From Alphaproteobacteria bacterium (lineage in GTDB: Bacteria; Pseudomonadota; Alphaproteobacteria; SMXS01): a stretch of 37,050 nt of DNA. How positions within the stretch are numbered: position 1 is the first letter of the stretch; each line of letters starts with the position of its first letter. The DNA lies in assembly GCA_030836535.1 (NCBI GenBank), contig JAURPT010000169.1, positions 1 to 37,050 of the forward strand. Direction: 5' to 3'. Shown one piece after another: positions 1 to 32,367 of the stretch. Under the pieces are notes generated by a model. That model was given only the letters and a program-made list of their open reading frames with translations, made no database searches and was not told the DNA's origin. The translations under genes and the position numbers were made by a program.

Positions 1-151
1 CACCAAATTCCTTGCGCCAGCGATAATAGGTCACCTTGTTCACACCGAGCTGACGGATCACTTCTCCTACCGTCATGCCCTGGCCGATCAACACATCAGC
101 CTCTCTCAACTTCCGGATAATCTCTTCCGCTGAGTACCGTTCGCCAGACAT
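1..151 (-). CDS. IS3-family transposase OrfA, N-terminal part (cut by window edge)
   Basis: About 50 residues are visible, starting MSGERYSAEEIIRKLREADV and ending YYRWRKEFG. This is the helix-turn-helix that opens IS3-family OrfA proteins: it binds the element's ends, and OrfA is normally fused to the DDE integrase OrfB by -1 frameshifting. The start ATG at 151 is preceded by a strong AAGGAGG ribosome site on the minus strand (about 157-163). A second ATG at 155 is out of frame. The DDE domain is outside the window, so activity of the element cannot be judged. Confidence 0.85.
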   Translation of the reverse strand, partial: MSGERYSAEEIIRKLREADVLIGQGMTVGEVIRQLGVNKVTYYRWRKEFG

Positions 152-216
152 TCATGCCTCCTTTTCCAGTTCAAAAATACTACCTCAAACTGGCTGCAAA
201 TACGGGGGCAAGGTCA
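1..216 (-). mobile_element. End of an IS3-family insertion sequence (partial)
   Basis: This is the 5' terminal part of an IS3-family element on the minus strand; the rest lies outside the window. The outer end reads TGACCTTGCCCCCG on the minus strand (203-216), which has the TG...CA type tip expected of IS3 elements, and the first transposase frame (OrfA) starts about 65 bases inside it. The tip is placed at 216 because the plus-strand reading frame of a different, repeat-type protein begins right after it. The other end and the target duplication cannot be seen, so the exact boundary is an inference good to a few bases. Confidence 0.7.
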
Positions 217-1955: not shown

Positions 1956-2960
1956 GTGAGTAACTCAGTGAATTTTGGTATTTGGGCCGATTTCAGAAAC
2001 CCGACACAATGGGTCGTGCCCTTCGAAAGCTTCTATGAAGCAAGCCTAGACCAGATCGCTCTGGCTGAAGACTTGGGCTTTTCGTCTGTCTGGCTGACCG
2101 AACACCATTATTGCGACGATGGCTATACACCGTCCCCCTTTGTCATTGGAGGAGCCATAGCCAGCCGCACAAAGTCGATGCGGATTGGGACGAATTTGAT
2201 CATCCTGCCCATTCACGACCCGCTTCGGGTTGCAGAAGATGCAGCAACACTGTCCATCCTGTCGGGCGGGCGGTTCGACCTTGGTGTTGGCATCGGCTAC
2301 CGGCAGCTTGAATTTGATCAGGCGGGGCGCTCGCTGTCACATCGGCCCAGTCTGATTGAGGAGAGCATCGAAATTCTGCGCCGCGCCTGGCGGGGTGAGG
2401 CGATCAACTTCTCAGGCAAACGATTTGACATTGGTGATTTGCGAATTACCCCGGTGCCAGAGAACCCGCCCCGGATCTTCGTGGGCGGTATGGCGTCGCC
2501 CGCGATTCAGCGTGCGGCACGTATCGCTGATGGTTTTCTGTCCACCGGCGGTATTGGTCATGACGACTATATTGCCGCGTTGGACAGCGAAAACACCCCA
2601 GAAGAACGAACCGGTATTTATGCGGGTTGCTGGGCCATTATTGCCGAAGACCCGGAGGCCGAAGCCGCCCGTATCGGCGAACATGTTCTATATCAGACCA
2701 ATGAATATATCAGTTGGGGTGCCTTTGGCCCGCCTGAAGAAACGCCGCTATTTGAAACGCCGGCTGCGGCGATTGAAGGCGGTCTTTACGAGTTGTGGGA
2801 TGCCAACATGGCGATTGAGCGCTTGCGTGGGATGATCGATACATACCCGCAGATTCGAGATATTCATTTTTGGTCGCGATTCCCCGGAGAGACGGTCGAA
2901 TCCGGCACAACACGTTTACGGTATATTGCGGAGAAGGTGCTGCCTGCTTTGCGCGACTAG
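1956..2960 (+). CDS. Luciferase-like (LLM) flavin-dependent monooxygenase
   Basis: A 334-residue TIM-barrel protein of the bacterial luciferase/LLM class, which uses reduced FMN (or F420) and O2 to oxidise organic substrates. Visible family features are the N-terminal NFGIWADFRNP strand, WLTEHHYCDDGYTPSP (the loop near the flavin), LSGGRFDLGVGIGYR (the classic flavin phosphate region) and PPRIFVGGMASPAIQRAARIADG near the C-terminal side. The start is taken as GTG 1956 because AGAGGGGAG lies just upstream; the frame is open further up to 1812, but that part is not luciferase-like. It ends in TAG, overlapping the tail of the convergent response regulator. The substrate is unknown. Confidence 0.85.
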   Translation: MSNSVNFGIWADFRNPTQWVVPFESFYEASLDQIALAEDLGFSSVWLTEHHYCDDGYTPSPFVIGGAIASRTKSMRIGTNLIILPIHDPLRVAEDAATLSILSGGRFDLGVGIGYRQLEFDQAGRSLSHRPSLIEESIEILRRAWRGEAINFSGKRFDIGDLRITPVPENPPRIFVGGMASPAIQRAARIADGFLSTGGIGHDDYIAALDSENTPEERTGIYAGCWAIIAEDPEAEAARIGEHVLYQTNEYISWGAFGPPEETPLFETPAAAIEGGLYELWDANMAIERLRGMIDTYPQIRDIHFWSRFPGETVESGTTRLRYIAEKVLPALRD

Positions 2961-3682
2961 GGACTTAGGCGTCGGTGTTGACAATCATCTTGTAGCCCTG
3001 CCCCCTGATCGACTTGATCACAATATTGGAACCGGCGCCCTTGAGTTTTTTGGCGCAGGTGGGAAATGTGTACATCGATAGACCTATCGTATGAGTCCCA
3101 TTCCCGCCCGAGAACGGTGTAATACAGGTCTTCTCGGCTCAGGTTGGCCGACTTATGCTCGATAAACTGGCTTAACAAGATGGTTTCGATCTGGGTCAGA
3201 TTGATGACCGTATTGTCTGGGCCAATCAGTTTGTCATTTACCCCGTCCAGTCGTGTGCCGTCTTCCAGCTTCAGAGGGTCTGCCGTGGGTGCATTTTCAT
3301 TCTTGTAGCGCTCTGATCGTCGCAGCTGGCTGCGAACACGTGCCAGCAATTCGGTTGGGCTCACGGGTTTGGGCAGATAGTCGTCCGCCCCCGCTTCCAG
3401 ACCGTTGACGCGCTCTTCGGTTGCGCCAATGCCGGAAAGGATAATGATAGGCATGTCGGTTGCTACCCGAATTTCCCGGGCGACATCCAGTGAATCGCCG
3501 TCGGGTAAAATGCGATCCAGTATCATCAGGTCAATATTGTCGGCTTGCGTGAACGCCATAGCGTCAGCACAACTCTCGCCATGTTCAATCTTGTAGGAAT
3601 GTCGTTCAAGATAGCGCGCCAAATCCATGCGCAGTCTCTTGTCATCGTCTATTATTGCAACGACAGGCTTTGCCCGTGTCAT
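2957..3682 (-). CDS. OmpR-type response regulator with frameshifted C-terminus
   Basis: A receiver domain (1-115: acidic D12-D14, phospho-acceptor D56 in LMILDRILP, K105 in PKPVSP) is joined to an OmpR/PhoB winged-helix DNA-binding domain (about 140-212, ending SIDVHISHLRQK). After residue 212 the frame is wrong: the expected ending, which should read roughly LKGAGSNIVIKSIRGQGYKM, is present one base over and would stop at TAA 2965-2967, giving a 238-residue protein. The shift sits in a run of six A on the coding strand (T6 at 3046-3051 on plus), one base too long. As written the recognition wing is lost and 29 unrelated residues are added up to TAG at 2957. No sensor kinase is adjacent. It is either a sequencing indel or a real loss of DNA binding. 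Confidence 0.8.
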   Translation of the reverse strand: MTRAKPVVAIIDDDKRLRMDLARYLERHSYKIEHGESCADAMAFTQADNIDLMILDRILPDGDSLDVAREIRVATDMPIIILSGIGATEERVNGLEAGADDYLPKPVSPTELLARVRSQLRRSERYKNENAPTADPLKLEDGTRLDGVNDKLIGPDNTVINLTQIETILLSQFIEHKSANLSREDLYYTVLGREWDSYDRSIDVHISHLRQKTQGRRFQYCDQVDQGAGLQDDCQHRRLSP

Positions 3683-30681: not shown

Positions 30682-31358
30682 CACGCTTCTACGAGGCAGG
30701 GATAGAACCTGATGGGCAGCCGTTGCCTATCCTCTACTCCTTTCGGCGTTGCCCCTATGCCATGCGGGCCCGTATGGCGCTGGTTGCCTCGGGGACGCCG
30801 TGCCGTCTACGCGAAATAGTCCTGCGGGACAAGCCCGATGAAATGTTGGCTGCCTCGCCCAAGGGAACAGTCCCGGTCGTCGTATTGCCGGATGACACAG
30901 TGGTCGATGAGAGTCTGGACGTGATGCAATGGTCGTTGGGGTTGAATGACCCTGATGACTGGTTGATCCCCCCGACCGAAACTGTCGACGACATGATGGC
31001 GCTGATCCGCCAATGCGATGACCAGTTCAAGCACAATCTTGACCGGTATAAATACGACACGCGATACCCCGGCGAGAAATCGACGGACCATCGTCAGGAA
31101 GGCCTCCTGTTTCTTGAGCTTCTGAATGGCCACCTGAAAGGTCAGCCCTTTCTGTTTGGTGAGCGGGCCTGCCTGGCGGATGTGGCAATCTTCCCGTTCA
31201 TTCGCCAGTTTGCGAATACGGACCGTGCGTGGTTCGACTCATTGCCTCTGCCAGAACTGCAGGATTGGTTGGCTTTGTGGCTCGACTCCGAGGTTTTTTC
31301 CAAGGTGATGACCAAGTTCCCATTGTGGAAAAAGACAGGCGAAGAGAACTTTTTCTAG
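30678..31358 (+). CDS. Glutathione S-transferase-like protein
   Basis: A 226-residue protein with a GST/thioredoxin-like N-terminal domain ([19 protein letters not shown]) whose CPYA motif keeps the Cys of omega-type or glutaredoxin-like GSTs, then [21 protein letters not shown] and an all-helical C-terminal domain ([16 protein letters not shown]). The start is GTG 30678, coupled to trhO by a GTGA overlap. It ends in TAG. The function is probably glutathione-dependent reduction or conjugation; the link to trhO is positional only. Confidence 0.85.
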
Positions 31359-31554: not shown

Positions 31555-31682
31555 TGCGTTTGGCACGATGAAATCAGAAAGACCAACGAAACGGCAAACC
31601 GTCGGCAACGGCGGGACGCAAAGCCACCGGCCCCACGAGGGCAGCGGAGCTACCGAAAGGCAGGCATGTTGTGCCAAACGTA
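31555..31682 (+). promoter_or_regulatory. Long-range helix that closes the riboswitch and buries the start codon
   Basis: CGTTTGGCAC (31557-31566) and GTGCCAAACG (31671-31680) are perfect 10-bp complements flanking the aptamer. With G-U pairs the helix extends to 31555-31570 with 31667-31682, 16 pairs without a bulge. The 3' strand contains the only usable start codon of the protease, GTG 31671-31673; the ribosome site AAAGGCAGG (31656-31664) lies between aptamer and helix. Ligand binding that steadies this closing stem would block translation. Confidence 0.6.
31585..31664 (+). ncRNA. Cyclic di-GMP-I (GEMM) riboswitch aptamer
   Basis: The conserved pieces of the GEMM-I aptamer occur in order: GGCAAACC (31593-31600); a hairpin CCGTCG-GCAA-CGGCGG (31599-31614) with a GNRA tetraloop; GGGACGCAAAGCC (31613-31625); CCGG (31627-31630); a variable stem CCC-CACGA-GGG; and GGGCAGCGGAGCTACCGA (31639-31656), the near-invariant 3' strand. 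This matches the well-known Vibrio Vc2 aptamer in sequence and order. It senses the second messenger c-di-GMP. It lies directly before a LapG-like protease gene on the same strand. No T-rich terminator follows, so control of translation is expected. Confidence 0.9.
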
Positions 31683-32301
31683 GCAAAACAAGCGACTACT
31701 CTTTTCATTGCATCTGCTATCGCAGTTGTTACCCTGGTAACCGGTGCAGAGGCAGGTGTTACCAAACAGCCTTCCTTCTTCAACTCCCCAGGAAATCGAA
31801 TATACCTCCCATTCCAACCTGCAAAAGTGGCAGGGCCTGTTGGTCAAGCATGAAGAAGCTGGCCTGCAGGGTGCAGCCGCTGCTGAGAGGAACGCCATCA
31901 TTGAAGAAAACAAGGACCGCCCTCTGAGCGAACAGATCGACGCCGTTAACCGCGAAATCAACCGCTTCTATTACGAAGAAGATGCCGCTCAATATGGCCG
32001 CGTAGATTACTGGGCTTCCCCGGCTGAATTCTTCGCCCGCGGCGCTGGTGACTGTGAAGACTTCGCCATCGCAAAATACATGCTGCTGAAAGCCATGGGT
32101 GTCGATGAAGACGCCATGCGGATCGTTGTTCTGGAACAGGCAAATGGTATTGGCCACGCCGTCCTGGTTGTCGACAGTGAAGACGGCCAGATGGTTCTGG
32201 ATAACCAGAGCGGGAAGGCCGAACTGGCTTCCGCCATCAACGACTACCGCCCCATTTACTCCGTCAATGGCAATGCCTGGTGGATGCACGTCGCCAACTA
32301 G
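31671..32301 (+). CDS. LapG-like transglutaminase-fold cysteine protease (frameshifted)
   Basis: A bacterial transglutaminase-like cysteine proteinase (BTLCP, LapG family). LapG is a periplasmic, calcium-dependent protease that cuts large adhesins off the cell surface. Start GTG 31671 opens a signal peptide (FIASAIAVVTLVTG, AEA cleavage site); mature family sequence begins with QEIEYTSHSNLQKWQ but is one base over: a +1 shift is needed in the CCCC run near 31786-31789. The catalytic Cys (codon 32053, GAGDCEDF), His (codon 32155, GIGHAV) and Asp (codon 32200, VLDNQ) are intact. Without the shift only about 60 residues are made. It is preceded by the c-di-GMP riboswitch and closed by a strong terminator, so it is a single-gene unit. 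It ends in TAG. Confidence 0.8.
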
Positions 32302-32337: not shown

Positions 32338-32367
32338 GAAAGCCCGGCAATGCCGGGCTTTCTTTTT
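32338..32367 (+). terminator. Rho-independent terminator after the LapG-like gene
   Basis: An 11-bp stem GAAAGCCCGGC / GCCGGGCTTTC (32338-32348 with 32352-32362), loop AAT, then TTTTT. It is 36 bases after the protease stop; its symmetric A- and T-runs may also serve the convergent thioesterase gene. Confidence 0.93.

Follow-up and report, generated by a model that had tools for sequence, protein, structure and literature searches.

A complete class I c-di-GMP (GEMM-I) aptamer directly precedes a BTLCP protease gene, and the two stay together in most genomes of the family (f1) in which they were found. The stretch of DNA that was analysed, referred to here as the window, is a 37,050-nucleotide alphaproteobacterial contig (JAURPT010000169.1, positions 1 to 37,050). 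On balance, the leader is probably a class I c-di-GMP riboswitch acting, in the OFF direction, on the translation of a periplasmic BTLCP protease that is related to LapG but is not a LapG orthologue. The features of the leader and of the gene are as follows.

31557–31566 (+): left arm, CGTTTGGCAC, of an inverted repeat (10 bp, perfect) flanking the aptamer; present in the window only, with none in relatives
31583–31657 (+): c-di-GMP-I (GEMM-I) riboswitch aptamer, RF01051; complete, 58.9 bits, with covariation in relatives
31655–31664 (+): Shine-Dalgarno-like purine stretch, GAAAGGCAGG, which abuts and overlaps the aptamer 3′ end (from the sequence)
31671–31680 (+): right arm of the inverted repeat, GTGCCAAACG, its first three bases being the probable GTG start (repeat search and minimum free energy (MFE) fold)
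31671–31790 (+): signal-peptide frame, V(M)PNVAKQATTLFIASAIAVVTLVTGAEA...FFNS; the aptamer ends 13 nt before its start, a spacing like that in relatives
31744–32301 (+): catalytic frame of the BTLCP (Peptidase_C93) protease, with PF06035 at 31915–32286 (profile search)
31782–31792 (+): one-base reading-frame change at a run of C, between signal peptide and protease (frame comparison)
32341–32367 (+): hairpin resembling an intrinsic terminator, AGCCCGGC-AATG-CCGGGCT, followed by a T-rich stretch (sequence inspection)

The aptamer

The aptamer scores 58.9 bits against the covariance model RF01051, whose cut-off is 35, with an E-value of 3.4e-9 for the window; the match spans the full model (positions 1–87) and is the sole one in the window's own genome (G000; 2.68 Mb, 96%-complete). 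Our own aptamer model R1, which has the window sequence among its training sequences, scores the window copy at 76.9 bits. In the 21-pair consensus structure of 13 aptamers, 97.4% of cells are standard pairs and nine pairs are changed on both sides, a level of covariation matched by none of 500 shuffles. The clear GEMM-I aptamer of the original prediction is confirmed by covariance as a genuine c-di-GMP-I aptamer, which would be expected to bind its ligand. Encoded in the same genome are GGDEF proteins and two EAL proteins, so that c-di-GMP is plausibly both made and broken down there. Also found in this genome (L060 4330–4968, C145) is a hemerythrin domain fused to a GGDEF domain reduced to its final third (profile positions 116–160 of 161); lacking the GGDEF active site, this fusion is either an odd deletion or an assembly collapse.

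That the ligand is 3′,3′-cGAMP instead of c-di-GMP, as for GEMM-Ib, is highly improbable. Geobacter GEMM-I aptamers do include cGAMP-selective ones, differing at position 20 (PMC6456294), but the cGAMP types carry A at that position (its correspondence to the present sequences being assumed), whereas GG opens the GGCAAACC block in the window and in all BTLCP-heading copies of the family, as in the family consensus.

Geometry of the leader

As had been predicted, the aptamer lies directly before the protease gene; the probable start codon is 13 nt on. This spacing varies little: in all eight aptamer–BTLCP pairs of the family the start codon lies 11–13 nt past the aptamer, that of the window being GTG and that of G008 the second of two in-frame ATGs. 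Kept at the Shine-Dalgarno spot in all eight pairs, and in front of a remnant gene in the genus neighbour G001, is CCGAAAGG; between aptamer and start the family pairs carry GAAAGG, the terminal CCGAA of the aptamer continuing into AGG. Because the start follows the aptamer so closely, leaving no space for a terminator, control acting on translation initiation or on RNA stability is most plausible, and because the 3′ base of the aptamer adjoins the Shine-Dalgarno stretch, an OFF switch is favoured.

In the MFE fold of the window, the right arm of the inverted repeat (31671–31680) pairs with the left arm (31557–31566) around the aptamer, and a flank helix of at least 10 bp was reached in only 7 of 2,000 dinucleotide shuffles of the window flanks. 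No common start-masking helix was found in the leaders of relatives, the 10-bp helix being peculiar to the window. Its absence from the relatives makes this helix a local feature at most, and for the same reason the direction of control is weakly supported.

The aptamer heads a one-gene unit, since a glutathione-transferase-like ORF upstream ends at 31358 and the thioesterase-like gene downstream lies on the opposite strand; the hairpin at 32341–32367 likewise suggests a one-gene transcript. At its far end (1–160, reverse strand) the contig opens inside an apparent IS3-type transposase orfA fragment (MSGERYSAEEIIRKLREADVLIGQG...), which is adjoined at 154–621 by a repeat-like ORF with no Pfam match.

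The protease and its gene model

The window protein (P0001) matches PF06035 at 78.2 bits in a profile search (gathering cut-off 27) and is the only BTLCP in its own genome. Its catalytic triad is formed by Cys 32053–32055, His 32155–32157 and Asp 32200–32202 (C104, H138 and D153); this C-H-D triad, together with the Asp and Glu flanking the Cys, is invariant in an alignment of relatives (A1). Profile alignment to LapG-type structures gives E-values of 8.9e-35 (4U65) and 9.3e-34 (4FGO). The NCBIfam LapG equivalog NF045674 is matched by all eight members of A1 (best E 1.2e-29), with the window protein, at 98 bits, below its cut-off of 320. The LapG-type protease that had been predicted stands as far as BTLCP membership is concerned, but does not extend to LapG itself: judged from its sequence, the protein holds as a BTLCP that is LapG-like at the family level only, not as a strict LapG.

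The ORF that shares the end coordinate first given for this protease, 32301, begins at an internal GTG at 31744, and as a gene model it has to be revised. No ribosome-binding site is evident before that codon, and a start there would drop the signal peptide; GTG 31671, in a different frame, is the likely start of the BTLCP gene. In the window, the signal-peptide-like segment that begins at GTG 31671 is one base out of frame with the catalytic domain; in relatives, by inspection, the signal peptide is in frame with the BTLCP. Gapless alignment to related proteins, also by inspection, follows the signal-peptide frame before 31782–31792 and the domain frame after it. Intact orthologues are encoded in G002, G003, G004, G005, G006 and G008.

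One explanation of this one-base break between signal peptide and protease is that the pair is decaying in the genus of the window, the gene being a pseudogene and the aptamer a relic. In line with this is the genus neighbour G001 (L008 1501–1800 / L057), where the aptamer (63 bits) and the start are kept in front of a remnant of ~49 aa, which is the C-terminal piece of a BTLCP alone, without the catalytic Cys and His; a PF06035 search of G001 gave no match. In the window, on the other hand, nothing in the aptamer departs from the canonical form, and both the catalytic triad and the reading frame of the domain are intact. The same one-base break is present, moreover, in an OmpR-type response-regulator gene elsewhere in the window (2957–3682, reverse strand), at a homopolymer near the C-terminus, such that its DNA-binding domain covers profile positions 2–58 of 77 only and the remainder lies in another frame. 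Two one-base breaks in 37 kb suggest an assembly error more than decay, which we consider rather unlikely; an assembly error appears to be the likeliest origin of the break. Ranked below it is a programmed frameshift, as a slippery signal with a stop next to it is lacking and the original frame continues for ~60 bases.

Conservation in the family and beyond

The expectation that aptamer and BTLCP gene would stay together in orthologues is borne out by eight pairs in seven of the ten family genomes (G000, G002, G003 with two, G004, G005, G006 and G008). Five further BTLCP paralogues in the family are without an aptamer. A tree built from 106 BTLCP domains unites the aptamer-linked proteins of G002 with those of genus g3 in a single clade (99/99), and those aptamer-free paralogues that it includes in a separate one (98/71); the window BTLCP is not firmly placed. 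Loss is also observed: G007, a genome without a BTLCP, carries a degraded aptamer (L063 9749–9851, 32 bits) in which GGCAAACC has become GGCGAGCC, and aptamer and BTLCP gene seem to have decayed jointly. A second, strong aptamer in G002 (L056 8116–8204) precedes a gene for an ATPase-like protein (MRLGEFLVARNVVTEDNVFDALKLQREHGG...), the start of which is GspE-N-like.

Of 385 genomes sampled evenly across the class, 114 carry a BTLCP and 33 the aptamer. No direct aptamer–BTLCP pair outside the family was found among the matches listed, which are the best-scoring loci of this 385-genome Alphaproteobacteria sample; an occasional pair among weaker matches may have escaped. The link was rejected as a general alphaproteobacterial trait, as the best non-family aptamer loci are without a BTLCP within 1.5 kb; in the nearest case (G384) the BTLCP lies 6 kb from the aptamer, with opposite-strand genes between.

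Of a further 80 BTLCP loci, taken from named genomes, one (L113, 2271–3100), on a ‘Deltaproteobacteria’ MAG contig of 3.5 kb, has an aptamer of 55.4 bits ~90 nt before the BTLCP start. In the 106-domain tree the L113 protein falls among beta- and gammaproteobacterial sequences (80/95), which points to a separate pairing or to transfer. Misbinning of this contig is possible. Taken together, the family and L113 lead us to suggest, tentatively and with somewhat less than even confidence, that direct control of a LapG-type protease by a c-di-GMP riboswitch, in lineages without LapD, has arisen more than once.

Lap partners, substrates and neighbourhoods

The original prediction noted no LapD or LapA homologue in the window, and searches of the ten family genomes detected no LapD and no LapA retention module either. 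The LapD N-terminal domain (PF16448) gave no match in these genomes, but this model matched no control genome either, which makes it a weak negative when taken alone. Neither of the two EAL proteins in the window's own genome, which are of REC-GGDEF-EAL and REC-EAL type, has LapD architecture, and the EAL proteins of genus g3 (~650 aa), considered as LapD candidates, appear by inspection to be EAL-CBS-GGDEF proteins that lack the LapD N-terminus. The LapA retention module (NF033682) is found in none of the ten genomes, and the LapB-type exporter (TIGR03375) in none above the cut-off (best 345 versus 693 bits). An arrangement in which LapG is served by LapA and LapD encoded elsewhere in the genome was set aside, the three models giving nothing above cut-off. 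As none of these three Lap partners was detected in the family, an adhesin role for the protease, and a surface adhesin as its substrate, are only inferred. Encoded in G000 are two small RTX proteins, and in G006 an RTX gene lies beside secretion genes; secreted RTX proteins appear to exist in the family, with no protease substrate nameable among them.

The family's lack of a LapA or LapB signature also bears on a different reading, in which the BTLCP is still under riboswitch control, but in the ON direction and/or with a substrate other than an adhesin, for example envelope or flagellar proteins in the change between motile and sessile states. A motility-linked role is kept open by the neighbourhood of the second pair of G003 (L053, C2), which by inspection lies among flagellar genes, with flgG/flgA on one side and flgL/flgK/flgE/fliI on the other. 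The other G003 pair (C1) and the G004 pair adjoin genes for a large sensor protein of PAS type and for a regulator of OmpR type; neither of these neighbours is an adhesin. Yet a single flagellar neighbourhood in eight pairs may be chance, RTX proteins are present in G000 and G006, and the known function of BTLCP proteases is the cleavage of surface adhesins, LapA by LapG (PMC3032545) and CraA and FrhA (PMC6890996). We regard an ON switch or a non-adhesin substrate as unlikely.

Proposed mechanism

In the mechanism that we favour, translational control in the OFF direction, the aptamer ends where the Shine-Dalgarno stretch begins, and ligand binding would act on ribosome access or on RNA stability. 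Binding of c-di-GMP would close P1 or the flanking helix, hiding the start site. At high c-di-GMP little protease would be made and surface proteins would stay on the cell; at low c-di-GMP the protease would be made and surface proteins released. From known physiology, adhesins should be kept at high c-di-GMP, which calls for less protease under these conditions and agrees with an OFF switch, in our analysis the most likely direction. RNA dosage, in a family without detectable LapD, would take the place of sequestration by LapD.

To our knowledge, control of BTLCP proteases is understood only where LapD is present. If the proposed mechanism is correct, bacteria without LapD could still tie the release of surface proteins to the decision between sessile and motile life, through an RNA. 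The pairing yields a prediction that is simple to test, and offers a way of finding new BTLCP substrates.

Comparison with known systems

The closest functional parallel is the Cdi1_12 class I switch of C. difficile, which represses the protease ZmpI/PPEP-1 at high c-di-GMP, adhesins being released at low c-di-GMP (PMC4591827, PMC6366702). In both cases a class I c-di-GMP riboswitch stands before a protease gene and the amount of protease would be set through RNA, adhesin release being a supposition for the family described here. ZmpI/PPEP-1 is a zinc metalloprotease of a Gram-positive bacterium with sortase-anchored substrates, whereas the window encodes a cysteine protease of a Gram-negative one. 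In C. difficile c-di-GMP represses transcription and the leader in the window has translational geometry; there an adhesin gene lies next door with a class II switch, and the window protease has no adhesin neighbour. The original proposal that c-di-GMP sets the amount of protease through RNA, as a different layer of control, retains the linkage on which it was built, and has a precedent in Cdi1_12-zmpI/PPEP-1 (PMC4591827).

With the LapD–LapG–LapA system, in which LapG cleaves LapA in Pseudomonas fluorescens (PMC3032545) and CraA and FrhA in V. cholerae (PMC6890996), the window shares the protease superfamily (BTLCP, with its C-H-D triad) and the second messenger. There, c-di-GMP acts post-translationally through LapD; in the present family it would act through the RNA leader, and LapD, the LapA retention module and the LapB-type exporter were not detected in the family.

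In its RNA, the window resembles Vc2, the leader of V. cholerae tfoY, which is described as switching translation OFF under the control of P1, an element required for the ligand to bind tightly (PMC9262584). Both are GEMM-I aptamers of Gram-negative bacteria, with translational control through the P1 end proposed for the window, but Vc2 controls a transcription regulator and the aptamer in the window heads a protease gene. No link between a c-di-GMP riboswitch and a BTLCP was found in the open-licence literature searched. The functional idea, a riboswitch that sets the amount of an adhesin-releasing protease, is already known from C. difficile; what is new, at the level of sequence, is that a GEMM-I aptamer and a BTLCP, each known before, are paired, and stably so within one family.
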